In this document: piece by piece, positions 23,001 through 57,610 of the stretch
How positions within the stretch are numbered: the stretch's first letter is position 1
Layout: the number at the start of each line of letters is the position of its first letter
DNA from: Enchytraeus crypticus
Taxonomy: Eukaryota; Annelida; Clitellata; Enchytraeida; Enchytraeidae
Assembly: GCA_905160935.1 (NCBI GenBank)
Contig: CAJHZI010000885.1
Span: forward strand, 238,501 to 302,500
Reading direction: 5' to 3'
DNA length: 64,000 bases
Program-made: the position numbers and the translations under genes
Notes under the pieces: model-generated
Told to the model about the DNA's origin: nothing
Databases searched by the model: none
The model's input: only the letters and a program-made list of their open reading frames with translations

Positions 23001-25524
23001 CATCATCATCATCATCATCATTATTATCATTATTATTATTATTTTTTATCCCGGTGTAAAGAACCTGATGTTTGATAAAAACGATTCAAGAAATACGTGC
23101 TGAATCGCCGCCCGGCTACTGGAGGTCATCAATCGGCTTAAAAGAATTGTTGAAGCAGACTGCATTAAATCTCTGCAAAGTCATGGAAAGCCTTTGCCAA
23201 AGAAAAGATGTCTCTCGCTTATCGCGGGTTTATTATCTCTAATTATCTCAACTTTATATTATCTATAATATCGGATGTTTCATTGACTACTCGGTGTCAA
23301 CGAATTTATTGCAATAAAATTCTTGATCGTAATTGTATTCATTTCCAGTACTCACTTTAATACCTAAATCAAATGATTATACAGCTTTAACAACTTTGCA
23401 GTTAATACCGTTATTTGTTTAAATAATTAGCATTAAACTGAAACTTTCTACCATTGTACAACTAATTCTTGCAATGTATAAGAATGCAGATTTTGAGGAT
23501 TAAATTAGTCTGTTACTTTTATTAAATATTTTAAAATATTTTTTTAAATTTGTTAGCAACTTGGCATATATTGCTCGAAAGAACTTTCCTTCTTGTTCCA
23601 TCTTTTAGTCATAAAACGATGTAGTTACAGGCAGATTATTTACGAGTGATTGTTTTAATATCATTATTAATTATTTATTAATTATTAATTTATTAATTTT
23701 TCATTATTATTAATTATTTATAAATTATTAATTTAGTAATTATTCATTAGTATTTATTTATTAATTATTAATTTCTTAATTATTCATTATTATTAAATAT
23801 TTATTAATATCGTGATTTTTTTTTTGTATTTGTGCACAGCAAGCACTGCCTCTATCGTAGTGCTGTGCGGGGACAACATCCCCCTACACAGTGTTCCCCC
23901 TCCTACAGGTACCAGGACTGTGCCAACAACAACAACAGTGGCTCAGGGGGTGACAACAACAACAAGGTCAGGAAACCCTGGTGACGCTTCCACCAGTCAG
24001 TCGTCAACAACAACAACAACAGCAACAACAACAACAACAACAGCAGCCACAACAACAACAACGAGGCAACCAGTAGGACCACCAGGACAACCGTCCACTA
24101 GTATAGGACAAGGACAACAATCTAGTACAACAACTAGACAACCAGTAGGACCACCTGGGCTAGAGACAACAGCAACATCAGGACCACAACCTGGGCAACC
24201 ATCCAGTAGTACAACTACAACAGTACAACAAGGACCAACATCAAGTACAACAACCAGGCAACCTATAGGACCACCTGGACCCACAACAACAGTACAACAA
24301 GGACCAACATCAAGTACAACAACCAGGCAACCTATAGGACCACCTGGACCCACAACAACAGTACAACAAGGACCAACATCAAGTACAACAACCAGGCAAC
24401 CTATAGGACCACCTGGACCCACAACAACAGTACAACAAGGACCAACATCAAGTACAACAACGAGACAACCGGTAGGACCACCTGGTCAGACTTCTACCAC
24501 CACTAACATAGGACAATCTAGTACAACGAAGGCCAGTGGTCCTGTAGGACCGCCAGTAGGGTCCCCGGTCAGCGGTCCGTCTACGCTGACCCCGGGCCCG
24601 GTGGCGGGAAGCACGACGTCCCTGGGTGCCCAGGGTAGCTACAGGTCAGGGACGCCTGGGGTGCCTACCCCCGGGGTGCCAGAGAGGATTGAGGTGGCTC
24701 AGAGTAGTGGACCGGGCTGGAACGTGAGGACTGGTAAGACCATGGGAGATTCTTTTGAAGCTTTTTCTATCTACTTTTTAGTTTTAATTTTTAAATTTTT
24801 TTAAATTTATATTATATTAAATTTTACCTACGTGCATGTGAACGCATTTGAATGTATGTGTGCTTTTGTCTATGTATGTATAAGTAATTATGTATATACA
24901 TGTGAATATATGTGTGTGCATGTGTGCATGTATGTGTGTATGTATGTGTACATGACAGTGGCTATCACAGTGGCTGTCATAGTGGGTGGACTGATACTCA
25001 TAGTCGCTCTTATTATGGCTCTCTACTGGTTCTGCTCCATGAGACACAAAGATGGCGGCGGGTCAGTGACTTTAAAGTCTAATTAATTAACTGAGTTATT
25101 GATCGATTGTGTCAATAAGTATTTATATCACTCATAGTATTACTCTGAATTCCGATCAGTTGGTGTCAGGATTGATTGATTGATAATTGATCAGAAAATT
25201 TCTTTAGTGATCTAAAGAATTGATTGAATTGAATTTTAATCGATAGCATAGTATTACATAATAATAATAATAATAAAATAATATTATAGATAATCAGATA
25301 TTAATACAGTCATATTTTAATATTAATAATAAAATATTAATATTTGTAAGATAGTAATTTATAAATATATCAAGATACTGATATATTAATTTATACGTTT
25401 TTTCACTACACTTGCCTAATCCATTATTTAATCTTATGAACAATCATTGCTTATATTGAAATATATTATTTCTATTTGATTATTTGTATTTAATTTATAT
25501 TTCTATTCAATGTATTAAATTTTT

Positions 25525-29664: not shown

Positions 29665-29832
29665 ATGGGCAGTGGATCCAGTCAACCCGCCCATCCCCCC
29701 ACTCTCTACTCATTTCCGCTCAGTCCCCCCTGTAGAGCTGTGCTGATGACGTCAGAGCTGGCTAGAATCAGCCTCAGCGTCAAGAACATAGACATCACGA
29801 AACAAGAACAGAACAGCGAGACTTTCACAGCC
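29665..29832 (+). CDS. GST copy 1 exon 1
   Basis: 56 codons from ATG to FTA, donor GCC|GTCAGT in phase 0, aligned with the exon 1 end of copy 2. A possible 5' UTR acceptor (CTTTCCAG) lies about 100 bases upstream near 29560. It encodes the first beta strand, catalytic Ser loop and first helix. Confidence 0.85.
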
Positions 29833-30650
29833 GTCAGTACTCCACTTCTTCTTCTTGTTTATCCTAAAGTAAACAATTTAGGTTAAATTGTTAAAAATCT
29901 TCATCTTGTTTAACCTAAATTATGATTTAACTCAATGCAATATATAGTTCACGTTTGACTAATATCAAAATTGCTGACATAGTTCATATTGAGTTCATCA
30001 GTACTCCACTTCTTGTTCTTGTTTTACCTAAATTAAACAATTTAGGTTAAATTGTTAAAAATGTTCATCTTGTTCAACCTAAATTATGATTTAAATTAAT
30101 GTCATGCATAGTTAACGTTTGACTGATAAGGAAATTACTGTTATGGTTTAAATCGAGAAGACTGTAGGCGAAATATACATGGACCAGCCAGAAGGCAGTA
30201 CACTAAGAGAGTTCACTAACCATTGAATTAATAGTTTCGTTGTTAACTCACTTGTCCTCTATGCAGGTAACCGTAGGTTCGATTCTTCGAGGGTCCCGTT
30301 TTTGAGAAGATCTTAATGAATCTGAAACTGCCGTTAAATCAAATTAATTGATTTTTAATTAAATTACCTATTAATTTAAGTATTTAAAGTTTAAATGAAT
30401 TGTAGCTTTCAGTTAACGTTTAAATTTTTAACTTCACTTTCTTGCAAAATAAAATATAATAATAATAATAATAATACTAATAGTAATAATAATAATAATA
30501 ATAATAATATTAATAATTACTATCAGTATAATAATAATAATAATAATAATAATTATTATTATTATTATTATGATTATTGATATTATTATTATTACTATTA
30601 GTATTATTATTATTATTATTATTAATACGAAAGTTAAACATTGTTGATCG

Positions 30651-30725
<75 letters not shown>

Positions 30726-31961
30726 TATTATTATTTTTACTATTATTGTTATTATTTATTATTATTATATTTTACACTAAACTAGTGCTGCTGTTTGAAC
30801 AGATAAATCCAGATCACACGGTACCCACACTGGTGGACGGGTCTCTAACGCTGTGGGAGAGGTGAGTCCACTGTAGGTTCTCTACTTTAATTCTAACTTC
30901 TACATGTATATATCAATGTACGAAAATCTTCTTCACTCCTGCACTTCTGTACGTACCTCTGCACTTCTGCACTGTTGCAGTCTGGCACTATTACACTTCT
31001 TTACTGTCGCACTCATACACTTCTGCACTTGGCACTTGTACACAACTGCACTTCTATGCTATTGAATGATTAATGATTACTTGATTGATTGATTGAATGA
31101 ATAATGATTACTCGATTGATTGATTGAATGAATAATGATTACTTGATTGATTGATTGAATGAATAATGATTACTTGATTGATTGATTGGTGATTACTTGA
31201 TTGATTGATTGATTTAAATCATTAATTGATTGATGAGACACTCGAGCTATCCTACAGTACTTGCTGGACCGCTATGCACCTAACCACTTGATTGATTGAT
31301 TGGTGATTGATTGATTGATTAATTTAGAACATTTATTGATTGATGAGACAGTCATGCTATCCTACAGTATCTACTGGACCGCTATGCACCTAATCACTTG
31401 ATTGATTGACTGGTAAGTGATTGATTGATTGATTTAAATCATTAATTGATTGATGACACAGTCGAGCTATCCTACAGTACTTGCTGGACCGGTACACACC
31501 TAACCACTTGACTGATTGATAGATTGATTGATTGATTGATTGATTGATAACATAGTCGAGCTATCCTGCAGTACTTGCTCGACCGCTATGCACCTAACCA
31601 CAGCCTGTATCCACGTGATCCTGTGAAGAGAGCCTATGTGGATAGGATGTTGCAGTATGACATTGCTAACATCTCTCCCGTCATCCTGCAATTCGCTGTA
31701 AGTCTTACCTTTTATATACTACCTACCTAATATAATTATATTTTCCCCCTCCTGTGAAATAGTCTCGAAGACCGAGTTCAGCCATGACTCTTCTATATAA
31801 GTTTTCGTTGTTATTGATAATAATAATAATAATAGTAATAATAATAATAATAAGATAAAAGAGAGACTTTATTTAATTAAAAGAAAGATGAAAAATATTT
31901 AAAATAGTTCCTCTACGCTCTGGGAGGCCGCATTCGCCAATGTGCCACGAACGCATACAGC

Positions 31962-32011
<50 letters not shown>

Positions 32012-35000
32012 GTGCTGAATCTAGCGGCGATTCAGCACGTATTGCTTGAATCGTTTTTTTCAGACCCCAGGTAAAATAATATTAATAATAATAATAATTG
32101 TTGGCCTCAGGGCAGGCTGAGGCGGAGAGGCAGAGCTCATCGGGTTTTACAAATCAGAGCTCTAATCAAGCGGATACTCGCTTCCAAAATTCTCTAGGAA
32201 CAGCTATCCAGATTTCAGGGTCGATGACTTCTAAAAGCGGTTCTCCCAGCAGAGTTCTCACAACTGCCTCATAAACGCCTGTTCAGGGGAGTCACCGTCG
32301 TCGTGGATCGATAACAGATGAAGTGGAGACGGGCGCTGCTGGAGCCAAAGGTTGTGGATTCGGGGCGGTGTCACCCGCTGCTGCGACCAGCAACATTTAA
32401 TAATAGCAATAATAATTTTTTAAATTATAAAATACAAATTAACAAAACATTAATAATTGCAAAAAAATAATTGTAATAATATTAATAATAATAATAATAA
32501 TAAATATTTAATGTAGTCTGCTTCAACAATTCTTTAAATCAGTTAGATGGCCTTGAGTAGCCGGGCGGCGAATCAGCACGTATTGCTCGAATCGTTTTTA
32601 TCAAACCTCGGGTTCTTTACACCACGGGGTAAATAAAGTAATAATAATTCGACTGACTTGGGACTTATACTATATCTGAACAATTTTTGTGAGGTTTTCT
32701 GGTTTTTGGATTATTTCACTGTTTTTGACACTCTTTTAGTTTGTGCCAGTCGGCTTGTGGTAGGTTTGATAGTGTCTGATGTTATCATTAACAACAGTTA
32801 CCTTGCCGCTGCTGTTATTGAGATCAGTATCATCATCATCATCATCATCAGAATCATCATCATCAGAATCATCATCATCATCATCAGAATCATCAGCATC
32901 AGAATCATCATCATCAGAATCATCATCATCATCATCAGAATCATCATCATCATCATCAGAATCATCATCATCAGAATCATCATCAGAATCATCATCATCA
33001 GAATCATCATCATCAGAATCATCATCATCAGAACCATCATCATCTGAATCATCATCATCAGAATCATCATCATCATCAGAATCATCATCATCAGAATCAT
33101 CATCATCAGAATCATCATCATCATCATCATCATCAGAATCATCATCATCAGAATCATCATCATCAGAATCATCATCATCAGAATCATCATCATCATCATC
33201 ATCAGAATCATCATCATCAGATCATCATCATCATCAGAATCATCATCATCAGAATCATCATCATCAGAATCATCATCATCAGAATCATCATCATCAGAAT
33301 CATCATCATCAGAATCATCATCATCAGAATCATCATCATCAGAATCATCATCATCATCAGAATCATCATCATCAGAATCATCATCATCAGAATCATCATC
33401 ATCAGAATCATCATCATCAGAATCATCATCATCAGAATCATCATCATCAGAATCATCATCATCAGAATCATCATTTTATTTCATACATTTAAACAGTTCG
33501 TATGCATACATCAGAAAAAATTATTTTAAAAGATTTTTAAAGATTATTTATTGTAGAGACCACAGCTGTTGTTTATTTATTGTGGAGACCACAGCTGTTG
33601 TTTATTATAGAGATCACAGCTGTTGTTTATTGTAGAGATCACAGCTGTTGTTTATTTATTGTAGAGATCACAGCTGTTGTTTATTTATTGTAGAGACCAC
33701 AGCTGTTGTTTATTTGTTGTAGCGACCGCAGCTGTTGTTTATTTGCTGTAGAGACCACAGCTGTTGTTTATTTGTTGTAGAGACCGCAGCTGTTGCTTAT
33801 TGTAGAGACCACAGCTGTTGTTTATTTATTGTAGAGACCACAGCTGTTGCTTATTTATTGTAGAGACCACTGCTGTTGTTTATTTGTTGCAGAGACCGCA
33901 GCTGTTATTTCAACAAGCAGCTGATGCAGAAAAGCAGAAGAACATGGAGAAATCTCTGGACTATTTAGAAAACACACTCAGGGTTGGCCATCATTTCTTT
34001 ATTCATCATCCGGTTTTTAGGTTTAAGCCAAATATTCCCTCAGCTAACTAACTATCTTTATATAGAGCACACCATTGATCAATCCAAGAAGTCTGTTCTT
34101 CACATTGACCTCACCTCTCGTGATTCACCTCTTTGTGACTGCGGTCAACCTCAAAACATGAAACATATCGTTGAAACACACTCTCTAACCTGCCTACCGG
34201 GTAGACTGTCTACGTGAAACTGTCCTACAAGTGAAGCTGCTTCCTGGATTAACGTATACGTTAAATATACATGTATATGTGTAAATGAGATCTACTAGAT
34301 CGGGGATTGTTTCGTTTTGTACTATTCACATAACTACTCTCACACATACATACATGCACACACATGCACACACAGACACACACACACACACACAGGCACA
34401 CACACGCGCATATGCACACACAGGCACACACACGAACAATCACATATACACACACAGGCAAAAATATGCATAGGCACACATGCGCACACAGGCATATACA
34501 CGTATAGGCACACATATGCATAAACACGAATACACACATAGTCACACACAGGCATACACGCACACACAGGCACACACGCACACAGAGGCACAAACAAGCA
34601 TAGGCACACATACGCGAAAATACAGGCATATACAGGCACAACCAGGCATATGCACTCATATTCACACAAGCATAGGCACACAGGCACACACGCACAGGCA
34701 CATCCACTGCGCACGAGTGCCACCAAGCATCTAACTGCCAGTACATCCGTTGTATTCCAGAGCATATTCTTGATGTAAATTAAATTCAATAATATTATGC
34801 AATTTTACGAAACATTTAACTTTATGATACGTATAATACGAGTATTTTTTTCTGCGCACTATATACACTCTACACACACTCGCAGAAGACGAAGTATCTA
34901 GCTGGCGACCAGCTGTCCATTGCAGACCTGAGCGTGGTGGCTCACGTCAATTTACTGGAGCTGTTGAAATGGGACTTCAGTCGATGGCCCAGGATTCAGG

Positions 35001-35089
35001 AGTGGTTGAGGTCAATGCAGGGTCAGGCCTGGTACAACAAGGTCAACAAACCCCTGGAAGATCTTAAAAACAAGAAACCTCAGGAATAA
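29665..35089 (+). CDS. Delta-class glutathione S-transferase, copy 1 (5 exons)
   Basis: Model: join(29665-29832, 30803-30861, 31556-31697, 33893-33982, 34886-35089); 663 nt, 220 residues plus TAA. Cytosolic-type GST that conjugates glutathione to electrophiles. The N-terminal thioredoxin-like domain has TLYSFPLSPPCRAVLM, where the Ser before PPCR is at the delta/epsilon catalytic Ser position, then NPDHTVPTLVDG with the cis-Pro, and LWESRAI, the glutathione-binding E-S-R motif, rebuilt exactly across the exon 2/3 junction. The C-terminal helical domain contains LAGDQLSIADLSVV (N-capping box) and W-rich SRWPRIQEW. Exon phases and sizes match the second GST at 39101. The start MGSGSSQ is unusual for a GST and fits an N-myristoylation motif. 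Introns 2 and 3 contain repeats derived from the adjacent exons. AATAAA sequences lie at 35197 and 35204. Confidence 0.9.
29835..30150. repeat. 164-bp tandem duplication starting at the GST copy 1 exon 1 donor
   Basis: CAGTACTCCACTTCTT at 29835 (part of the exon 1 donor GTCAGT) and again at 29999. The two units are about 90 percent alike by eye, with TTTAGGTTAAATTGTTAAAA in both. Confidence 0.85.
30455..30770. repeat. AAT/ATT microsatellites in GST copy 1 intron 1
   Basis: AAT then ATT runs; ends about 30 bp before exon 2. Confidence 0.9.
30803..30861 (+). CDS. GST copy 1 exon 2
   Basis: 59 nt, acceptor TTGAACAG, donor AG|GTGAGT, phase 2. Encodes INPDHTVPTLVDGSLTLWE and the first two bases of Ser: the glutathione-site cis-Pro (TVPT) and the start of the ESRAI motif. 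Confidence 0.88.
31242..31506 (+). repeat. Three truncated copies of GST copy 1 exon 3 start
   Basis: At 31242, 31352 and 31462 the first 45 bases of exon 3 (CTACAGTACTTGCTGGACCG region) are repeated within ATTG tetranucleotides at 110-bp spacing. The second and third keep the AG acceptor. Confidence 0.92.
31556..31697 (+). CDS. GST copy 1 exon 3
   Basis: 142 nt, acceptor AACATAG, donor GCT|GTAAGT. Encodes SRAILQYLLDRYAPNHSLYP through VILQFA: end of the thioredoxin domain, linker and first helices of the C-terminal domain. The 5' part is copied three times just upstream. Confidence 0.88.
32003..32640 (-). mobile_element. rep-C composite in GST copy 1 intron 3
   Basis: Two direct copies of the rep-C end (ATTCAGCACGTATTGC, at 32025 and 32571) flank about 400 bp that includes a GC-richer block at 32100-32395. 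It could be one element with terminal direct repeats or two insertions. No intact protein frame seen. Confidence 0.5.
32838..33474. repeat. ATC/AGA compound microsatellite in GST copy 1 intron 3
   Basis: Repeats of TCATCATCATCAGAA for about 640 bp. Reads as Ser/Glu, His or Met/Ile in different frames; not a gene. Confidence 0.93.
33547..33892 (+). repeat. 12-copy minisatellite of the GST copy 1 exon 4 acceptor
   Basis: Units of 25-31 bp, TATTGTAGAGACCACAGCTG then TTGTTTATT. Each copies the acceptor AG and the first 12-15 exon bases; the thirteenth copy is the real junction. Confidence 0.93.
33893..33982 (+). CDS. GST copy 1 exon 4
   Basis: 90 nt (30 codons), the same length as exon 4 of copy 2. 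RPQLLFQQAADAEKQKNMEK then SLDYLENTLR. The acceptor TTGTTGCAG and first bases are the template-like end of a 12-copy array upstream. The donor AGG|GTTGGC is weak. Confidence 0.82.
34330..34720. repeat. CA-rich compound microsatellite in GST copy 1 intron 4
   Basis: CACACA with interspersed GGCACA and GGCATA; ORFs on both strands are artefacts. Confidence 0.9.
34886..35089 (+). CDS. GST copy 1 exon 5
   Basis: 204 nt with stop, same length as in copy 2. Acceptor CTCGCAG. KTKYLAGDQLSIADLSVVAH carries the S-x-A-D N-capping box typical of GST C-terminal domains. The TAA overlaps an AATAAA at 35084. Confidence 0.9.
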   Translation, partial: KTKYLAGDQLSIADLSVVAHVNLLELLKWDFSRWPRIQEWLRSMQGQAWYNKVNKPLEDLKNKKPQE

Positions 35090-39100: not shown

Positions 39101-39298
39101 ATGGGCAGCTCGGCCAGCACAACATCTAGCACTGAAAGCAGGACCAGTGGGGAGCAGAAGCCCCCCACTCTCTACTACCACCCGTTTAGCGCCCCTTGTA
39201 GAGCCGTTCTCATGGCTGCGGGGGCGGCTAACATTAAACTGAGGCTGAAAAAGGTCGATATGCTGAAGGGAGAGCACAAGCAAGAAGAGTTCCTCAAG
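39101..39298 (+). CDS. GST copy 2 exon 1
   Basis: 66 codons, ending AAG|GTTTTT in phase 0. Encodes the Ser/Thr-rich leader, the SAPCR catalytic loop and KVDMLKGEHKQEEFLK, a motif very typical of delta GSTs. Confidence 0.9.
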
Positions 39299-40409
39299 GT
39301 TTTTATTTATTTATTTCTTTCTTTTAAACACGAAAATACATCAAACTAATGCGTAATAAAGCTGGTGTAAAGCTAAGGTTAACGTCAGTTTCCTCACTCG
39401 AAAGCGATATCAGTGACGGGCGAGCACAGGATTTGAACCCCGCACCTACTGCTCCGCGGTCGAGTGTCTTACCGTCTTCGCCAATGGCTTCAGCCAGTAA
39501 TCTCCACAGTCTTTCTGAGGTGATTCCAGATGGCGGACCTAGGGATATATTTCTACTTTTTCTCTCAAGCTGTGAATCAATCAATCAATCGATAACAATT
39601 TAACGTCCGGTTCCTCGCCATAAGGCCATGTCACGGAAGTCGAAGAAGTGATCCCCCAATCGATGAAATTGTTAATCGGAATGTTCATATCCATGTATAT
39701 CTCTCTCTCACTCTCTCTCTCTTAGTGCACTACTTATTGGCAGGTCCATGGCACACAATTCATCCACATATTTCTATGATCTGCCTTTCTCTTCATATCA
39801 ACAAATGAATTGGTTATTTAATTATCCAGCATTCCAATTCTCGGTCTTCCTCAAACCTTTCTTCCTTCCATTCTTCACTCAATTACCTCTTTTAGCTAAA
39901 CCTTTCCCTCTCGGTACATGACCCATCGAGTTATTCTTTCTATTTCTTATGATATCCAAGCACGGACAGTCGATCAATCTTCCTGAATCCTGAATCATTT
40001 ATTTGTCTTGCTTGCCTGTGAGCTGCAACAGTTTCACATGTGTTACATTATCACATAGATGTGTGTCACATGCGTCACATTATCACATATATGTGTGTTA
40101 CGTGTGTCACATTACCACATAGATGTGTGTAACATGTGTTATAGATCAATCCCGACCATACTGTGCCCACTCTAGTGGACGAGTCCTTCAAGCTCTGGGA
40201 GAGGTTCACTGTCTGTCTGTCTGTCTATCTGTCTGTCTGTCTGTCTGTCCCCTTCTCTCTCTCTCTCTCTCTCTCCTTCACTCTCACTCTCTCTATCTCT
40301 GACTGTCCGTCTGTCTCTCTCTCTCTCAATCTATCTATCTACATGTGTATATCTCTCTCTCTCGTTCTCTCTCGCACTCTGTCACTCTCTATCTTTCTTA
40401 TTCACTCTG

Positions 40410-40476
<67 letters not shown>

Positions 40477-41518
40477 CTTACACACACTCTCTCAATGTCT
40501 GATATGTAGCGCATATAGCTTCTCTACGAAGTCTTAGCATTAACCTTTACTTTAAATAGTAAGCACTAATAACTAGCTATCATAAATATCTAACATAAAA
40601 GCCTTGGCAATGACTTGGTAATTGTAATTAGAGAAGTGGCTTGCTACTTATGCTATTGAGATATATCAAACATTTGAATCGATTTTATCAATTAATTGAC
40701 CTATTAACTTAATTCATTTCTTCATTAAGTCAATCGCTTAATCAATTACTCCTTAACTATTGATCGATCTATTGATTGACTGATTGAATAATTCACTGAT
40801 AATTTGATTGGTTTATTTATAGATGGATTGATTGATAGATTGATTGATCGAATATGTTTTATTGATTTCTTAATTAATTGATGGAGTGATTAATCGATGG
40901 ATTGATTACCGATCATTTTATTTAGTCATTTTACTGATTGATTGATTGATTGATTACTGATATGATGACAGTCGAGCTATAATGCAGTACCTACTGAACC
41001 GCTATGGTTCAGATCAGAACACGCTGTACCCACGCGACGCTGTACGCAGGGCTACAATTGATCGACTGCTACAGTATGATCAGGGTACAGCGTACAGAAG
41101 CATCAGTGAATACATCGTGCGTATTCTGCAATACACTACAATACATTAACTGTAATACGTTACAAGTATGTGACAGTAGTGTGTTCATAAAATAGCTAAT
41201 GTTAACGTCAGTTTCCTCACTCGAAAGCGATGTCATTGACGGACGAGCCTTGGATTTGAACCCCGAAAAAACTGATCAGCGTTCGAGTATCTTACCGACG
41301 TCGCCACTGGTTCCAGCCAGTGGCGACCTTTTGAATATTTCGTAGTACAATTAAGTACAAAACACTAGGACATTGTCAGTATTAGAGGGTTATATCGAGT
41401 AGAAATGCAGTGTAATAATACGCTCATTTACTGAATATTGAAGAGCAAATATGGTAATGTAGAGCATTAATTAACGTTCCTGATATTGCCTAATGGCAAG
41501 GAACCGGACGTTAAATTC

Positions 41519-41551
<33 letters not shown>

Positions 41552-43212
41552 TACCCTATTAATTAACACTGTCTAATTCTTATCATTCGAATCCCGGCCG
41601 CGCTGATCTGAGAGTAAAATCTCGGACATTCACTGGACTGGTTATACGGAAAATGGTCTAAATTGCCTAACGGATTAAACATGTGGTTTTAAAAGTGATA
41701 GACATCAACACAGTTGATTATAATGCGTGTTTACTTTTTTTGGAAACCATGTATGTATTGCAATATGATTTCGATTAGTGTCTACTAACATAAATCGACG
41801 TGTATAGAATTGAGCCAGTTGAGGGAATTATTCGATTTACTTAATTATATACCATGGACGTGCCAGCTCTCTGTCCATCTGTGCCAACTCTCTCCAGGAA
41901 GTCCTGGAGAGAGTTGGCACAGATAGACAGTTAATAAATGTAATAAGAAATAGGAAGAAGAGATGGATAGGACACATTCTGAGGGGGGAAGGTCTATTAA
42001 AAGAGGTCATAGAAGGTAGAATGGAAGGAAAAAGAGGCAGGGGCAGGCCGAGATTAGGTATGTTAGATGATTTAAAGACCCACTCATATGTGGAAATGAA
42101 GAGGAAGGCGGAAGACAGAGAAGAGTGGAGGCGTTATGTACCATGGACCTGCCAGTAGGCAGTGCACTAAGAAAGAGAGAGAGAGAGAGATACCATGGAC
42201 CTGCCGTTTAACAGAACATTGAGCAACGCAGAAAGAACGGTGATTGCACCGTCGAATTAATGGCAGTTAACATTTTATTATTTGATTGATTAGAATGAAA
42301 TCAGCTGCAGCAAAAAGAGGAGCTTTTCATCCTAATTCGACATAAAATTTTAGCTTATATGTACTTTATTTTTCAAATTTCCAGTATCCTCAGCTCTTCC
42401 AGTCTTTGGAAGCAGATCCGGAGAAAGCCAAGGAAGTGGAGAAAGTTCTGGATTACCTGGAAAACATTCTCAAGGTCAGTGTGTTTGATAAGTCAAATAA
42501 CATAACATATCCGATCAATCACATAAACTTGTACTGGTATGTTAATTACTGTTTGAATGAAAGTTAAACACACATTTTACATGATTAAAAAAACTTGATT
42601 CTATTCTATTCTATTACATTCTGTTCTATTCTATTCTATTCTCTTCTATTCTATTCTATTCTATTCTGTTGTGTTCTATTATACTCTATTCTATTCCATT
42701 CTATTCCAATTCCATTCTATTCTATTCTATTCTATTCTATTTTTTAATTTGATAGCACATCTCCGTCTTGATCGCTGAATTTAATTTTAGGAGATGCGTA
42801 TTTCTTGATTCTATCTTGATCGATCGCATAACTGATATAATCAATCAATCAATATATCGAAATTATTCATTTAAACTTGCTATATTTACATGCATGATTA
42901 CATTGGATTAAAATTGTCAAGTTTTTGGTCTATCGCTTATCAAAGATGACTAACTCATATTTTTAAAATGCAGTAAAATAGCTAAATGGTTGCGTTGATT
43001 GGTTTTAGACGCAGAGCTACGTGGCCGGTTCTCACCTCACTCTGGCTGATCTCAGTCTAACCGCAGGGCTCAGCCTGCTAGAAATTAAAAACTGGTCATT
43101 CGACAGGTGGCCTGCAATCGCCATCTGGCGAGAAACAATAAAGAAAGAAGACTGGTACGAGAAAGCCAATGAAGGCCTGGCTAGGTTTAAAGAGAGTGGA
43201 TTGGCACTGTAA
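39101..43212 (+). CDS. Delta-class glutathione S-transferase, copy 2 (5 exons)
   Basis: Model: join(39101-39298, 40145-40203, 40972-41116, 42385-42474, 43009-43212); 696 nt, 231 residues plus TAA. Domain content matches copy 1: TLYYHPFSAPCRAVLMAAG with the delta-type catalytic Ser in SAPCR; EEFLKINPDHTVPTLVDES; LWESRAIMQYLLNRYG; YPQLFQSLEADPEKAKEVE; and YVAGSHLTLADLSL, the N-capping box. Compared with copy 1 it has a longer Ser/Thr-rich N-terminus (MGSSASTTSSTESRTS) and one extra codon in exon 3. Head-to-tail tandem duplicate, about 4 kb downstream. A TTTTTAG acceptor about 15 bases before the ATG suggests a separate 5' UTR exon. MGSSAS is again a candidate myristoylation motif. Introns 1 and 3 contain SINE-A copies. 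A 41-bp minisatellite grows out of the final codons. Confidence 0.92.
39357..39497 (-). mobile_element. SINE-A copy in GST copy 2 intron 1
   Basis: Full-length: GTTAACGTCAGTTTCCTCAC, GGATTTGAACCCCGCACC, ATGGCTTCAGCCAG. Confidence 0.87.
39685..39760 (-). mobile_element. LINE 3' tail fragment
   Basis: CT repeat followed by TTAGTGCACTACTTATTGGC and AGGTCCATGG: the LINE 3' terminus in minus orientation with its GA tail, in intron 1 of GST copy 2. Another short tail-like piece is at 30178-30215 in intron 1 of GST copy 1. Confidence 0.7.
40025..40144. repeat. 32-bp repeat ending at the GST copy 2 exon 2 acceptor
   Basis: Three and a half copies of CACATGTGTTACATTATCAC then ATAGATGTGTGT. The last partial copy, ACATGTGTTATAG, is the acceptor itself. 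Confidence 0.85.
40145..40203 (+). CDS. GST copy 2 exon 2
   Basis: 59 nt, acceptor GTTATAG, donor AG|GTTCAC (weak after position +2), phase 2; INPDHTVPTLVDESFKLWE. Same length and phase as copy 1. Confidence 0.88.
40207..40475. repeat. CTGT and CT microsatellites in GST copy 2 intron 2
   Basis: Begins four bases after the exon 2 donor; a long pure CT run at 40405-40472. Confidence 0.9.
40972..41116 (+). CDS. GST copy 2 exon 3
   Basis: 145 nt, acceptor GATGACAG, donor ATC|GTGCGT. SRAIMQYLLNRYGSDQNTLY to SISEYI. Preceded by the same ATTG tetranucleotide tract as copy 1 exon 3, so that tract predates the gene duplication. Confidence 0.88.
41193..41325 (-). mobile_element. SINE-A copy in GST copy 2 intron 3
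   Basis: GTTAACGTCAGTTTCCTCAC to CACTGGTTCCAGCCAG, directly followed by a second short SINE head (AGTGGCGACC). Confidence 0.87.
41580..41760 (+). mobile_element. SINE-B copy
   Basis: TTCGAATCCCGGCCGCGCTG, AAATCTCGGACATTCACTGG, GCCTAACGGATTAAACATGT; close to the copy at 51330. Confidence 0.75.
41855..42190 (+). mobile_element. LINE 3'-end fragment with 5' inversion
   Basis: 41896-42175 is near identical to the last 290 bases of the LINE at 44.7-45.9 kb, with an uninterrupted frame (GRPRLGMLDDLKTHSYVEMK). The first 40 bases are an inverted copy of the start of the fragment (CTCTCTCCAGG facing CCTGGAGAGAG), the usual result of twin priming. The 3' end has the CCTGCC hairpin and a GA tail. A second tail-like piece (CCATGGACCTGCC) follows. 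Confidence 0.88.
42385..42474 (+). CDS. GST copy 2 exon 4
   Basis: 90 nt, acceptor ATTTCCAG, donor AAG|GTCAGT; YPQLFQSLEADPEKAKEVEK then VLDYLENILK. Confidence 0.9.
42595..42745. repeat. TTCTA pentanucleotide repeat in GST copy 2 intron 4
   Basis: About 30 units of CTATT with variants. Confidence 0.9.
43009..43212 (+). CDS. GST copy 2 exon 5
   Basis: 204 nt with stop, acceptor GGTTTTAG. TQSYVAGSHLTLADLSLTAG to FKESGLAL. The last 18 coding bases and stop begin a tandem array that continues into the 3' flank. Confidence 0.92.
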   Translation, partial: TQSYVAGSHLTLADLSLTAGLSLLEIKNWSFDRWPAIAIWRETIKKEDWYEKANEGLARFKESGLAL

Positions 43213-43470
43213 TGGTATATTAGCAGTGGATGGAGAGTGGATTGGCACCGGGATAGCAGTGAATTGAGAGTGGATTGGCACTGGAATAGCATGGTAGCAG
43301 TGGATGGAGAGTGGATTGGCACTGGAATAACATGGTAGCAGTGGATGAGATTGGATTGGCACTGGAATAGCATGGTAGCAGTGGATGGAGAGTGAATTGG
43401 CACTGGAATAGCATGGTAGCAGTGGATGGACAGTGGATTGTCACTGGAATAGCATGGTAGCAGTGGATGA
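43192..43470 (+). repeat. 41-bp minisatellite grown from the GST copy 2 C-terminal codons
   Basis: Seven copies starting with coding GAGAGTGGATTGGCACTG (ESGLAL) and stop; later units continue GAATAGCATGGTAGCAGTGG. Confidence 0.94.
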
Positions 43471-44679: not shown

Positions 44680-45948
44680 GGATTACAGAGCAGAACAATC
44701 AGCTTAATACATCATGCATCGAAGATCTTATTAAAGATAGTAAATAATCGCATTCAGTCGAAAGTAGAGATGATACTGAGCAAGACACAATTTGGTTTTA
44801 GGAAAGGGTGCGGCACAAGAGAAGCAATAAGGGTAATGCGGGTTCTTTGCGAAAGAAGCTTAGAATATGGTAATGACGTTTGTGTATGCTTTGTAGACTT
44901 CGAGAAGGCCTTTGACAGGATTGATTGGATAACGATGATGAATATCTTAAAAAGACTAGGAATTGACTGGAGAGATAGAAGACTAATTTTGAACTTGTAC
45001 ATGAATCAAAGAGCAGTAACCAAAATCCAACAAGAATACTCAGAAGAAGGTGAAATAGGACATGGGGTAAGACAAGGTTGTAGCATTTCGCTGCTGCTGT
45101 TTAACATTTACGCTGAGGCAATGATGGAGGAAGCCATGGAAGACATGGAAGAAGGAATAAATGTAGGAGGGAATTTGTTACAAGATGTACGATTTGCAGA
45201 TGACCAAGGAATGGTAGCGGGCAGCGAGATTGGATTGCAGAAGATAATGGATAGGCTGAATGATACGGCATTGAGATATGGCATGAAGATTAATATAAAA
45301 AAGACCAAGGTTATGAGAGTGTCCAATAATAAAGGTGAAGTTAATATCACAATAAATGGTACGAAATTGGAACAGGTAAGGAGTTTCAAATATTTGGGTC
45401 ATACTATAACCGATGATGGGAAATGTGAGACAGAAATATGTAGTAGGATTGCACAAGCAAAAGCGGCCTTTGGTAGTAGAAAAGAAGTATTAACAAAAAG
45501 TCTAAAGAAAGACACAAAGATAAAGATAGTGAAAACTTTGGTTTGGACCACACTATTATATGGATGTGAAACATGGACCTTAAGAAAGGAAGATATTAGG
45601 AAACTGGAGGCATTGGAAATGTGGATTTGGAGAAGAATGGAGAGGATTAGCTGGACTCAAAAGGTTACAAATGAGGAAGTCCTGGAGAGAGTTGGCACAG
45701 ATAGACAGTTGATAAATGTATTAAGAAAGAGGAAGAAGAGATGGATAGGACACATTCTAAGGGGGAAGGTATATTAAAAGAGGTCATAGAAGGTAGAATG
45801 GACGGAAAAAGAGACAGGGGCAGGCCGAGATTAGGTATGTTAGATGATTTAAAGACCCACTCATATGTGGAAATGAAGAGGAAGGCGGAAGACAGAGAAG
45901 AGTGGAGGCGTTATGTACCATGGACCTGCCAGTAGGCAGTGCACTAAG
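44680..45948 (+). mobile_element. LINE (non-LTR retrotransposon), 5'-truncated reverse transcriptase with a frameshift
   Basis: Open from 44680 ([20 protein letters not shown]) through Q-F-G-F-R-K-G, the RT motif A FVDFEKAFDRI, GVRQGCSISLLLFN, the catalytic FADDQG, KTKVMRVS and FKYLGHTI. The C-terminal region has YGCETWTLRKEDIRKLEALE and RKKRWIGHILRG. A one-base loss in a G run at about 45762 ends this frame at 45777; the rest (GRPRLGMLDDLKTHSYVEMK to PWTCQ) continues in another frame to 45935. The endonuclease and the start of the RT are missing. The 3' end is a CCTGCC-N4-GGCAGTG hairpin. The copy lies inside a TA microsatellite. LINE assignment is secure; I do not assign a clade. Confidence 0.93.
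44770..45777 (+). pseudogene. LINE reverse transcriptase fragment
   Basis: 335-codon part of the element described at 44680-45948, counted from an internal Met. It lacks the 5' RT motifs and endonuclease and stops early by frameshift, so it is not a functional gene. The 41.9-kb fragment keeps six G at the site where this copy has five, and reads through. Confidence 0.9.
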
Positions 45949-49855: not shown

Positions 49856-49934
49856 TAAAGACTAAACTACTATTTTACACGCTTACTTACATGTATATTT
49901 CATAGGTAAGTAACAAGAAGTGCTCGATATTAAG

Positions 49935-50419
49935 ATGGATACGCAACGCCTGCACGAGATCATAGATGAGTTCTCCACTGAGAAGTACTTCATAGAGTTT
50001 GGCGGATACCTCAGCAACCATCTTCCTCACGCTCTCGTCGCCTTCCACAGACTGGGCGCCGATGAGACTCGAGTCAGGGAGTTCATCAGATGGTATATCC
50101 CACGTCTGGAATCTTACGAACAACATTCCCATGAACGGGAAATTCCCATTACTACGGGAAATACTTCGGAGAATGGAAAATCCGACTTGCTTATAAATAC
50201 TAGAGGTATTTCCGATGACGTAATGGTTTCTTTGATAGGGAAACGCTGTTGTTACTACGCCATCTTGGATTGGTATGAGAGGCAGTTGAAGGAAGAGTGT
50301 TGTGGAACTGTGGACGCCTTGATAAGGAAGAGGTTTCCATCTCTGGTGGCTGGATTCGCTGGTTCCGCCCTTCATGGACTCATCCACCTCGGATATGGAT
50401 ACGCTGCCAATAGTCCGAG
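49935..50419 (+). CDS. Questin-oxidase-like exon 1
   Basis: 161 codons plus two bases, donor GAG|GTATCA. Holds the HALVAFHRLGAD and H-x-x-x-H-L-G-Y-G motifs. The antisense frame is also open but low-complexity at its 5' end; it is a shadow. Confidence 0.86.
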
Positions 50420-52504
50420 GTATCACTACAATACAATTAGATACGATACGATATGATACAATACAATGAAATACAATACAATACACAATACAATGCAATA
50501 AAATACAATACGATACCATACAATATAATACACAATACAATGCTATACAATACAATGCTATACAATACAATGCAGAAAAATACAATACGATATGATACAA
50601 TACCAAGCGATATGATACGATGCAAGACAATACAATACAATACACAATACAATACGGTAAGATACAATACAATACGATATGATACAATACATTACGATAT
50701 GATGCGATACGATATGATGCTATATGATGCAATAAAATACAAAAACAACAACAGGCTATGTGTTTCTCATGACAACAACAACATCATGAAACCAAAATCA
50801 AGCCGTAGGATAAAAAGTAAGGTCCAGTGAGCGATGCGTTCATATCCTTGGACTGACTTTCTGGATTTTAGAATTTGCACCTTTTTTGGATCTTCTTTTT
50901 GCTCACCGGCTTGATATTGTCTCAATAGTGCTCGATGTTGTCGTTGATTACTGTAGCCCTCTAATTGTTGCTATGTCGTTATGTTATGTTATGGAAGTCA
51001 GGAAAATCATAACAGGGACACGCATAGTAGCAGTAAATACCATTCTCTCTGTGTTGTCTATTGTCAGAGTCTATGTTCTCATTCTCTCGTAGCTTGAAAG
51101 CAGACTGTTACGATACCTTCTTAAATTCCTAAAGAGCACTTTATCGATTAACGATTTGATTCAGTCGTCAATTGACACTAGCTGGAGCCAGTGTCAATAT
51201 CGGTAAGATACCCGACAGCTGAGCGGTATGTGTGGGTTCGAATCCTGGACTCGCCCGTTTCTGATATCTCACTAGCGAAGTGAAACTGATGTTAACATCG
51301 GCTTTGCCGCTTATAATACGGGTTGTATAGCCGAACGGATGCCATGTTTGTTGTTTTGAATGTCTTAATAGAGTAGGGGTAACGTCATGAAGTTTTAAAT
51401 GACAGATCCTGAGGTGAATTGAACCCTCTTGGGTTCGAATCCCAGCCGCGCTGATCTGAGAGTAAAATCTCGAACATTCACTGGACTGGTTACACGGAAT
51501 ATGGACTAAATTGCCTAACGGATTAAACATGTGGTATTAAAAGTGATAGATATCAACATGGTTGATCATTTCATTACAATGTGTGTTTACTTTTTCAATG
51601 AGAAGTGGGAAGAAGGTCATCGACTGAATTTCTAGTACGACCATCTCTGGCAATACCCATTGTGATAAGGAAACTGATGTTAAACTCATTTGAAAGCTTT
51701 AATATTAAATTAAGGCTCTATATGTTTGTATACAGGTTGATATGCGAAGGTCTGGCCTACATGCATCACTCGTATCTCCCTTTCAAATCTGCTGAATCAT
51801 CCAGCGAACACTTTCTTCGATCACTCGGAAGTGATACTCTCGACATAACTCAAGTCCTCGCTCTCATTCATGATAACATCGAGCTGCGCAGGTTTATTGC
51901 GGAGGCACCGAGTGATAAGAGCCTACAGGCACTGGATACGAGTGATTTTCAGAGGAAAATGAGAGCCCTCTTCACGCACAGAGCCGATGTCATCATGAAC
52001 TACGCTCGACGAATCAGATTCCCGCCTCACATTGACCTGGCGCTACCTGACGAGCAACACAAGATCGCTCTGTTCAAGTGGCTGCTCGACTGCGCTGTTA
52101 CCACTTACGCGCTCTCCGAGCGCTACAACGACTTTTTTCTCATTCACGGGGTAACGGCGTCGTTCTCAATGCGCAACGTTGTGACGTCATTCGATGTTTA
52201 CGATCCGGCAGACAAAGTCGCCATTTTGAATTCTGCCGTCGCTTTAATATATACCTTCCTAGCGGCCTATATCACACAGGGTGCAGGAAAACTCATTCCA
52301 TTCGAGGAGGGTGAGGTGGGAAGATTGGAGAACTCATCGTGGGAGGAGATAGTGAAGGAATGTTTGGACGGAGAGAGGGATGAGCATGTGTATAAGCTCG
52401 TCCAGGTCTGTTCGGAACTGGAGAGAGAAACGAGTGATGTGGAGCTGAAGCGAATCTATAAAAGAGCAGCATCGCGTTGCCTAGAACATCCTCTTCTGTT
52501 CTAG
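49935..52504 (+). CDS. Questin-oxidase-like protein (DUF4243), 2 exons
   Basis: Model: join(49935-50419, 51736-52504); 1254 nt, 417 residues plus TAG. Family features: N-terminal YLSNHLPHALVAFHRLGADE, the hallmark HGLIHLGYGYAANSPR at about residues 147-162 with two His, continuing across the junction as LICEGLAYMHHSYLPF; later DEQHKIALFKWLLDCAVTTY and DFFLIHGVTASFSMRNVV. In fungi questin oxidase opens the anthraquinone questin in geodin-type pathways (Baeyer-Villiger-like). Animal members of the family have no role known to me, so the substrate is open. The length is normal for the family. The ATG is the first in frame after a stop; the junction phase (2) matches. AATAAA at 52933 is a good poly(A) signal. 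The intron starts with an AATAC microsatellite and also carries rep-D, SINE-A and SINE-B copies. Confidence 0.87.
50425..50740. repeat. AATAC pentanucleotide repeat
   Basis: ATACAATACAAT with GATAC variants, starting directly after the exon 1 donor of the questin-oxidase-like gene. Confidence 0.9.
50845..51000 (+). mobile_element. rep-D copy in questin-oxidase-like intron
   Basis: TTTGGATCTTCTTTTTGCTC, TCTCAATAGTGCTCGATGTT, GCCCTCTAATTGTTGCTATG. Confidence 0.7.
51180..51310 (+). mobile_element. SINE-A copy in questin-oxidase-like intron
   Basis: AGCTGGAGCCAGTGTCAATA, GGGTTCGAATCCTGGACTCG, GAAACTGATGTTAACATCGG. Confidence 0.85.
51330..51600 (+). mobile_element. SINE-B (second tRNA-like family)
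   Basis: GGGTTCGAATCCCAGCCGCG B box, then GAGAGTAAAATCTCGAACAT, CACTGGACTGGTTACACGG and a tail ending GTGTGTTTACTTTTT. It provides the spurious open frame before exon 2 of the questin-oxidase-like gene. Confidence 0.75.
51736..52504 (+). CDS. Questin-oxidase-like exon 2
   Basis: Acceptor GTATACAG; one base completes the Arg codon, then 255 codons to TAG. Frame-open sequence upstream of the acceptor is SINE-B derived and is not part of the protein. Confidence 0.87.
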
Positions 52505-54071: not shown

Positions 54072-55646
54072 TTATAAATGATTCCTGGTAAATTCAAACT
54101 GTGTGTAGTAGGAGATGTTAACTGATCTTCTTCCACTCAGTTCTTCCAGTGTCCTGTTACACATCAGTTCTTCCATGCACGCATACGCCACCGGATCATA
54201 ATCCCGATTAAACTTGTTCACGAACAACTCCATTCTGCTGGAAATAAACTTGAGGTCGCCCACACCTACAATACATATTGTGCGCACATACCTACCGCGG
54301 CAAGGATATTCCCCAGCCCAATTTTTATACCGAGCTAAAAACGGGTACTGAGGTTGCTTTGAAATAGGGTCGCCTAAATAGGAGCCAGGAACCCCGAGCT
54401 TTGGACTATGATTCAAAGATGAAAAGTACGTTTCATCTGGTATGCCGGTAGGTTTAACCCATTTGAGGAATTTAAGCGCAGTTTTATTTGTAATGACGTA
54501 TTCAACATAGGCCCGTTTGGTGATGATATGCACAGAACCTTTAGTTAGAACCAAACCCGTTATGTTGAGCGGTCCACCAGGTACGTATCTGCTCTGACTG
54601 TGGTGTTTAAGCAGTCCCTCCACTACATTGGACCCGTTAAACGCCTTGATTATCTTCACCAGACCTGTGGAGGTCTGAAGTGGAAATTCCTGTCCAGTTA
54701 GATTGATGAAATACTTCCACTTTTTGTACTTGAGAAGTTCTCGCATACAAACCAGTTCAGCCTCTAGAACGGAGAAATAGGAATGCACAACGTCGATGAG
54801 TTTTCTGGGTATGAAGACGTTGCTGAAGCATTTGACTATAGCTCGCACTGACGCGTGTATCACTTCATCTGAAGACTCGTCGATATGAACGCAGTAGACA
54901 TTCTGTGGCCGGTAGATTGCTCTTAGCAGCCGTTCAAATAACTCCACCTCCGTGTGTACCATGATGGAATAAGCGATGGGAAAGTCGGCTTCTTCTTGCG
55001 TCAGAGGCTGCAGGATATAACGCCTCTTCGATATATAGTCCGAACAGTATTCTTGATTCTCATACGATGATTCCAAGAATCTCGTTAGATTGAGGTTGTA
55101 TCGAGGAAGTTTACGAAGCAGGTCCTTGTTCCACTGGTACTCCTCTAGATCTCCTCTGAAAATATCTCTACAACTGACCTCTCTCACTGTTGGACAGACT
55201 AGATCCACCTTCTTGATGGATGTCTTGATGTTAGGTGATGAAGGGATACGTGGACTGGAGCTCAGCGGTTCCACAGGACGACTACTGACGCTTTTAGGAC
55301 TCGTCATCTGCGAGGATGGAATTCCCTCGTCACTGCTTCCAGGTTCCTTGAATGCTTCGCTGATTTCATTGTTTGTGGAATCTGAGGTTAGGACTGAGAG
55401 GTTAGGATTAGAGAGCTGAAGAGGTTCACTACTCTGAGAAACCACATGAGATTCTATAGAGCTGTTGGTGCTATGGTCCCTCAATGATGACTTTTCCTCT
55501 AACACATGGTTCGCTGTTGTAGCATCATTTTTATCACCCGAGGAGAGGGAGTGGTTGAACTCAAAGAAGAAGATGTTGATTACTATGAGTAATACTAACA
55601 GGACGACACAAATTAATTTTTTAATATGCGCAAATTTACGAATCAT
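54072..55646 (-). CDS. Core-2-type beta-1,6-N-acetylglucosaminyltransferase (GT14 family), intronless
   Basis: 524 residues from the Met at 55646. Type II Golgi protein: short basic cytoplasmic end (MIRKFAHIKK), membrane anchor LICVVLLVLLIVINIFFFEF, a Ser/Pro-rich stem of about 120 residues, then the catalytic domain. Hallmarks: FPIAYSIMVHTEVELFERLL, YCVHIDESSDEV, YFINLTGQEFPLQT, RPQNVYCVHID, the GIPDETYFSSL motif with the likely catalytic Glu, and RDYDPVAYACMEELMC near the end. The enzyme would add GlcNAc in beta-1,6 linkage to GalNAc or Gal on mucin-type O-glycans. One coding exon is usual for GCNT genes. A further in-frame ATG lies at 55709, but starting there would put about 20 extra residues before the anchor. 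The stem is longer than in vertebrate GCNT1. A second, very similar gene lies upstream at 63804. Confidence 0.92.
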   Translation of the reverse strand: MIRKFAHIKKLICVVLLVLLIVINIFFFEFNHSLSSGDKNDATTANHVLEEKSSLRDHSTNSSIESHVVSQSSEPLQLSNPNLSVLTSDSTNNEISEAFKEPGSSDEGIPSSQMTSPKSVSSRPVEPLSSSPRIPSSPNIKTSIKKVDLVCPTVREVSCRDIFRGDLEEYQWNKDLLRKLPRYNLNLTRFLESSYENQEYCSDYISKRRYILQPLTQEEADFPIAYSIMVHTEVELFERLLRAIYRPQNVYCVHIDESSDEVIHASVRAIVKCFSNVFIPRKLIDVVHSYFSVLEAELVCMRELLKYKKWKYFINLTGQEFPLQTSTGLVKIIKAFNGSNVVEGLLKHHSQSRYVPGGPLNITGLVLTKGSVHIITKRAYVEYVITNKTALKFLKWVKPTGIPDETYFSSLNHSPKLGVPGSYLGDPISKQPQYPFLARYKNWAGEYPCRGRYVRTICIVGVGDLKFISSRMELFVNKFNRDYDPVAYACMEELMCNRTLEELSGRRSVNISYYTQFEFTRNHL

Positions 55647-57610
55647 AATTATTAGTTCTTGTCTCGTCCGTTGACTCAATCTAGAAGGTAATGATACATA
55701 GGCTAACATACCCGTAGCCCATATAGGCGGTTTAAAAATCAACTTGATATATTTATTTCAAAGGCGAATTTTTGTTAGTTTCAAAGATTTATCTTATTAT
55801 GAAGCAGTACATTCAAAAGTCTCCTACAGTTAAACAGACACAAGCACTAAACTGTTAATTGCACGATTTGTTTTAGATCTCAGATTTCCGTCTCTATAAA
55901 TTACATTGTAAAATCAGGGGCGTCCACACAATGTAACAACGACGCATGCTGCATTGTTGACAAATAAGGGAAGTGGAAAAAGGTACGAGTTGTAAAAAAG
56001 AGGGAGGGAGTGAAATAATTGCGTCATTAGTTAGGCTAAAAGGGTTATATGCGAGCATGCGTCGCTATTTTGGAGGATGGGGGACGCCCCTGTGTAAAAT
56101 TAACAATATGGGCAAAGCTGTTTAAAACAGAATGAGGTTTTTAAGTAGTACAAATTTCATTAGCTGTTCCTGATTTTAACCGTGAGATGAGTCCTCGATC
56201 ACGCTAACTGATAATCATAAGCAAGGATATGGAATAGGAAGATACGACATCTAAGTTTTTATAGTGGGAAAAATCATTAACGTTAGCGAAGACTTGTCCA
56301 AGTTCTTGTTGTATATTTTGGTGAGGAAGCAAAGTGTCTTTGTTACTATAATAGGCCTGTATCTTAATTTGTTCTGATATATTCACAATTTGAAATTCTG
56401 AAAATCAAATAAAAAGTTTTGACTTACAATTAGCTTTATTAATTTCGTTGCATTCTAAAAACTATAATCAACTGACAATTGCAGTTAGGGGAGTTAATTG
56501 GTCTACATGTATAGACCCCTATATTCTCTTGGGTATCCTGTACACAAAACTTCACATGCATGGTGGCAGATATATAAATGGCCCAAAAACGGTGTAAAAT
56601 CTAATCCAACGATAGAAAATTAAAGAATCGGCAGTTTACGAGTGGGTGGCAATTCATCAACAATGATTAAATAAAATATAATATTGTAGTTCTTTAACGA
56701 TTTTTGTACAAAGTGATCAGTTGTAGCATACATATACAGTAATTGCTAGTTGTATATAACAGAAAAGTACGTTTAGAAGACTTCCCACATTTTACAGTAA
56801 AAGGATTGCGTTGCTTAGATATATTTTGCTTTCGTTTATTAGGCATTGAATTAGCCATCAGTTGATCATTGTTTACTCACTTGGATTGTCATTGGTGATT
56901 AAAAAACGAAATTAGTTTCTGGTAACACTAGAATTTTATACTGCCATTCTTTACAATGGCCGAGATAGGGCATGCCGTTTCTAATAATTCTTTATTCTAT
57001 GATCATAAGTGAAACGTTTAGTAACAGCATTGTGCACAAGGACTTGAATCATGAAGAATGCAGATGGGTTGGATTACTATTAGCAACACACCCCTGCAGA
57101 CATGCTGTACTTTGAAGACATGCTGTACATTGAAGTGCATGCCGTGTCTTGTTGCAGGCACAAAGATGCGTATAATTATTAGACGTACTGCATTAAGACA
57201 TGTGCTGTATACATCTAGCCTGACCTTACGGTTGAGTGCTCTTATTGGGCGCTTGCATCATATATTCTATGACACATGCTTGTGTGCTATGTGAAAGTAT
57301 GCAATGCTTCAGCGGCACTGCTAAACACCTGTCAACAGCTATACCGGGGAACGCTTGGTTAGAGTTTGGACTACGTGAGTGTTAGAGAATATCACAGAGA
57401 ATACGTGCGTAATAGGCATGAAAAAATCTTTAAATATATTGAAGAAATCAAGTAGATGTTGAACTCTCAATAATTAAAGGGCAATTCGGGGACCCGTCAG
57501 TGCCTTCGGGCTTTTGATTCTTATTTCACATTCTCTACATGTATTTCTTGCTCAGGACAGCAGGGCTACATGAAGCGAAATATAAAATCTGACTCAAATT
57601 ACACACTAAA

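Follow-up and report, generated by a model that had tools for sequence, protein, structure and literature searches.

On the plus strand of the window analysed here, a 64,000-nucleotide stretch of the Enchytraeus crypticus genome, the exon 4 acceptor of a GST gene (copy 1) is preceded by an array of twelve further units built from its own intron-exon boundary. We consider this array, with a probability of about 0.78, to be a minisatellite of the "mirage" type that arose by ordinary repeat instability and is tolerated by the host gene, with splicing occurring mostly at position 33892 and with no dedicated function for the repeats. Its origin would lie in a tandem duplication of the last ~11 bases of intron 3 together with the first ~18 bases of exon 4, followed by expansion of the duplicated boundary to 12 extra copies through the same instability. 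The array would be tolerated because its most downstream copy retains the true acceptor and the whole exon. Directly visible in the DNA are the anatomy of the units, the open reading frame of the host gene and the way in which the true exon 4 site differs from its decoys.

The host gene and its paralogue

GST copy 1 (29665..35089, plus strand) comprises five coding exons, at 29665-29832, 30803-30861, 31556-31697, 33893-33982 and 34886-35086, which on joining yield an open protein of 220 residues ending at a TAA stop codon (35087-35089). The protein matches the Pfam families GST_N_3 (2.5e-14) and GST_C (7e-11), and in a search of solved structures, run with a query of exons 1, 4 and 5 only, the two best chains are named GST delta. 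Judging from these matches, copy 1 is probably a cytosolic, delta-like GST with GST_N and GST_C domains, and the host gene is probably a detoxification gene. Downstream lies copy 2 (39101..43212, plus strand), a 231-residue paralogue that also matches Pfam GST domains and is encoded by five exons at 39101-39298, 40145-40203, 40972-41116, 42385-42474 and 43009-43209, with its TAA stop codon at 43210-43212. Identity between the two proteins is 49%, and pN is 0.35 against pS 0.77 over 220 aligned codons (pS being beyond correction); copy 1 is therefore unlike a pseudogene, and purifying selection on the two copies is likely.

Exon 4 of copy 1 (33893..33982, plus strand; RPQLLFQQAADAEKQKNMEKSLDYLENTLR) is homologous to exon 4 of copy 2, whose acceptor reads TTTCCAG/TATCCTCAG and whose start corresponds to AGACCGCAG in copy 1. 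The junction named in the original prediction, with exon 4 starting at 33893, is supported: the preceding intron is in phase 0 and identically placed in both copies, both give open five-exon models, and in the three structure alignments shown the GST chains align across the exon start, RPQL with YPQ(L/V).

Several other features of these genes were observed. Exon 5 of copy 1 has a tandem acceptor, CAGAAG (34883-34888), the first AG of which aligns with the start of exon 5 in copy 2. Intron 1 of copy 1 contains a tandem duplication (29834-30160; 163 bases compared, spacing 164, 83% identity) that starts one base inside the donor, and despite this adjoining duplication the 25-base segment at the donor has no match at 80% identity. 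A 646-bp repeat of ATC/AGA type occupies 32829-33474 in intron 3 of copy 1, ending 69 bp before the exon 4 array begins. In copy 2, a period-41 array of 7.0 copies (43192-43469) runs from the last 18 coding bases through the stop codon into the 3' flank.

Boundary arrays at exons 4 and 3

The exon 4 array (33544..33910, plus strand) consists of twelve decoy units and the true boundary, with a unit of 29 bp and variants of 25 bp; TRF reports it with period 29, 13.1 copies, 86% matches and a score of 524, and its presence, far beyond chance, is confirmed. Given as the last base before the exon-like part, the decoy boundaries lie at 33556, 33585, 33610, 33635, 33664, 33693, 33722, 33751, 33780, 33805, 33834 and 33863, and the true boundary at 33892, neighbours being spaced by 29 or 25 bp. 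The common unit reads ATTTATTGTAG, then AGACCACAGCTGTTGTTT, whereas the true unit reads ATTTGTTGCAG, then AGACCGCAGCTGTTATTT, and then continues into unique exon sequence. Each unit thus joins ~11 intron bases to ~18 exon bases, so that the earlier view of the array as made from the intron-exon boundary itself is correct. Over 29 positions, identity between units ranges from 0.76 to 1.00, and units also differ by 4-bp length steps. Mean identity is lowest for the true unit (0.84, against 0.86-0.93 for the other twelve), and the unit at the 5' edge, with 0.93, is among the highest, so that lower likeness at an edge is found at the 3' edge only.

All twelve units that had been described as sharing one acceptor are present, but they are not uniform: the boundary AG is kept in 11, the exception being 33585 (TGG), the boundary at 33722 is followed by CGACC, and none of the twelve carries the CAG of the true site. 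Similarly, the earlier count of up to 13 similar AG sites captured the boundary AGs and was incomplete. Most units present a boundary TAG, a GAG two bases on and a CAG nine bases on, and the decoys together hold 33 AGs (11 TAG, 11 GAG, 11 CAG), which, with an AAG just before them and with CAG 33892, GAG 33894 and CAG 33901, bring the AGs of 33541-33910 to 37.

Besides these inner AGs, the earlier reading of the gene had omitted a second array, at exon 3 of copy 1 (31556..31697, plus strand; true acceptor ACATAG/TCGAGC). This array (31172..31545, plus strand), found by TRF with period 110 and 3.4 copies and by alignment, contains three upstream units, each formed by a TTGA-rich intron end and about 45 bases of exon 3. 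Their boundaries lie at 31241 (CAC, the AG being lost), 31351 (CAG) and 31461 (CAG), and the true site at 31555 (TAG), with successive spacings of 110, 110 and 94 nt, the last reaching the true boundary. The idea that donors within the arrays create new exons was set aside; apart from the exon 3 donor, the only GTRAGT in 31101-33900 is a donor-like GTAAGT at 31413, inside this array.

As predicted, exon 4 of copy 2 lacks an array, a second copy of its boundary being absent at 80% identity within 2.5 kb, and by the same measure copies are absent for all eight splice boundaries of copy 2 and for the six other boundaries of copy 1. A candidate at exon 2 of copy 2 was rejected, for its array, of period 32, stops at 40139, five bases short of the exon, and a boundary copy is absent at 80% identity.

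Tandem arrays are abundant in the window, where TRF arrays cover 20.7% of the sequence (14.3% for periods of 10 or more). Two of 18 splice boundaries from three genes, 16 in the two GST copies and two in a questin-oxidase-like gene, have an 80% copy within 2.5 kb, and a nearby copy was found for 65 of 1127 complex random 25-mers and for 320 of 2000 25-mers of all kinds. Enrichment of arrays at splice boundaries of the window is accordingly not shown (P for at least 2 of 18, 0.28 against complex and 0.81 against all 25-mers), in a test that is weak with only 18 boundaries. With no clear excess to account for, a repeat-prone genome is cause enough for the arrays.

Other elements were noted in the same window. 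The questin-oxidase-like gene (49914-52504) is split by an intron, one exon ending at 50419 and the next starting at 51736; from base 8 of this intron there is a TACAA repeat. A long open frame on the minus strand (54072-55757) matches the Core-2/I-branching enzyme family (Pfam 1.1e-37). A reverse transcriptase open frame (44680-45777; Pfam RVT_1, 8.9e-30) comes, in our judgement, from a LINE-like element, and a 69-bp repeat of 3.9 copies with 98% matches (24217-24485) lies in a Thr/Pro-rich open frame that we judge to be mucin-like.

Choice among the acceptors

The true exon 4 acceptor (AG at 33891..33892, plus strand; CAG/AGACCG) carries the sole boundary CAG among the 13 units and is preceded by an AG-free stretch of 25 nt, against 12-18 nt for the twelve decoys, both differences having been found post hoc and resting on one or two base changes. 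The longer stretch is due to the last decoy, the only one to have lost an inner CAG: its exon-like part (33864..33881, plus strand) has CACTG in place of the CACAG or CGCAG of the other 11. A general rule of CAG at true sites and TAG at decoys was discarded, since exon 3 breaks it, having TAG at the true site and CAG at two of the three decoys. There, decoy 31461 combines CAG with 42 AG-free nt, 94 nt upstream of a true site, 31555, that has TAG and 31 AG-free nt; the true exon 3 site is without an advantage of the exon 4 kind over its decoys.

A framework for the choice among many AGs is offered by the AG exclusion zone and scanning from the branch point as presented by Gooding et al. 2006 (PMC1431707), the rules given there having been derived from human exons, chiefly ones whose branch points are distant. 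We scanned 33480-33885 for yUnAy motifs, finding 19, with human-derived branch rules and a minimum distance of 12 or 15 nt. Only the motifs at 33853 and 33857, both in the last decoy, reach 33892, which they do at both distances; 16 of the 19 lead to upstream AGs, and one (33882) leads to 33901. As yUnAy is a loose motif and the pattern was recognised only in hindsight, the scan serves as a consistency argument. Under the scanning model, 33892 would be the site mostly used, because it is 35 and 39 nt downstream of the branch-like motifs of the last decoy, with the intervening AGs falling in the bypassed near zone; the other units would be mostly silent, or a source of frame-shifted RNA. Use of CAG 33901, nine bases into the exon, would drop three residues in frame.

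If decoys were used, 11 of the 12 boundary positions (33585, without AG, included) would lead to an early stop, decoy 33805 being the only open one, with 29 additional residues. Across 33541-33910, the frame is open at 5 of 37 AGs (33805, 33814, 33865, 33892 and 33901), and use of any of the three exon 3 decoy positions would end the product after residue 94. Whether RNA with an early stop is degraded is usually judged by a 50-nt rule on the position of the stop relative to the last exon junction, and 10 of the 11 exon 4 stops, lying 58-372 nt before that junction, fit the rule. The nearest decoy, 33863, lies 29 nt upstream of the true boundary and shifts the frame, as had been predicted; translation would stop after residue 157, just 14 nt short of the last junction, and this product might therefore escape decay.

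These consequences are what would be expected if decoy acceptors lowered or tuned GST output, with frequent splicing into array AGs, degradation of the early-stop RNA and a loss set by copy number, as the original prediction had in part suggested. A precedent for such tuning is the human ABCA7 intron 18 VNTR, for which exon 19 skipping is described as rising with repeat length (PMC5954066). Like the GST array, it is a short repeat (25 bp) that adjoins a splice boundary and supplies a splice site in its units; the ABCA7 unit, however, lies within the intron and has a donor site at its start, whereas the GST unit copies an acceptor and exon start. Because VNTR length changes splicing in ABCA7, tuning of GST output by array copy number is kept as a possible, minority reading. 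We regard it as unlikely, since amphioxus arrays with AG-bearing units are reported, in the accounts cited below, to splice regularly, since the true exon 4 site has both the CAG and the longest AG-free stretch, and since the stop of the nearest decoy may evade decay.

A selective version of this idea strikes us as quite improbable. In it, the two arrays of one GST gene would form a copy-number dial, with most decoy AGs giving early-stop RNA, and selection would have kept both the CAG of the true site and the last decoy's loss of its inner CAG because they let a scanning spliceosome reach the true exon 4 acceptor.

Hairpins between neighbouring units could, in principle, mask the decoy AGs and leave the true one exposed. 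The common unit contains a palindrome, ACAGCTGT, and in a local fold the true AG is, of the 13 positions, the likeliest to be unpaired (probability 0.50, the others 0.09-0.41). It also leads in one wider fold (0.66, the next 0.64), but in another it falls behind decoy 33834 (0.48 against 0.53) and is equalled by 33780. The fold of the array with exon 4 appears stable by comparison with shuffled sequence (z = -2.27; 3 of 100 shuffles as stable), yet its stability is ordinary once the controls are tandem repeats of a shuffled unit (z -1.5, with 16 of 200 as stable), and on this non-significant result hairpin hiding, which we hold to be very improbable, was set aside. An assembly artefact, or a wrong copy number, is a highly improbable account of the array as well, for while assemblies are error-prone at tandem arrays and one amphioxus mirage is described as aberrantly assembled in a draft (PMC3087553), the substitutions between units (identity 0.76-1.00) and their 4-bp length steps are unlike the joining of identical reads.

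Relation to mirage minisatellites

The reading as a tolerated minisatellite draws on an established repeat type. "Mirage" minisatellites of amphioxus are described in the globin genes BflGb6 and BflGb9, Adh, troponin C and PGBD5 (PMC3087553, PMC3902484), the Adh case going back to Canestro et al. 2002, as cited in both papers. For these boundary arrays, the two accounts report or infer undisturbed splicing: in PMC3902484, troponin C and Adh are cited as being without aberrant mRNAs and the same is inferred for lancelet PGBD5, which has repeats of 60 and 108 bp at splice sites.

Like the amphioxus mirages as described there, the GST arrays are tandem repeats across an intron-exon boundary whose units bear AGs and whose copies have diverged. 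In BflGb6, as in the GST exon 4 array, an intron's 3' end is repeated together with the beginning of an exon, the BflGb6 units being described as homogenised inside and less alike at the edges, and PGBD5, like GST copy 1, has more than one boundary repeat in a single gene. The dimensions differ, with 12 extra units of 29 bp in GST, 6 or 3 units of 150-160 bp in BflGb6, units of 157 bp in BflGb9 and of 10-72 bp in Adh3, as given in those accounts. The mirage cases compared are all cephalochordate and in other genes, the GST arrays are known from DNA, in one sequence, and the two are linked by likeness only. The defining feature of a mirage, units that span the boundary, is present at exon 4 and, in 110-bp units, at exon 3, and the host is an open GST gene of 220 residues with its authentic boundary at the array edge. 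By these sequence features, the GST arrays are a further case of a repeat type already published.

The exon 4 array lends itself, as a natural test case, to studying how the spliceosome chooses one AG among many near-identical ones. The GST arrays add to the view that boundary repeats are tolerated and can feed intron gain, as proposed in PMC3087553, and such repeats might also vary gene output between individuals.
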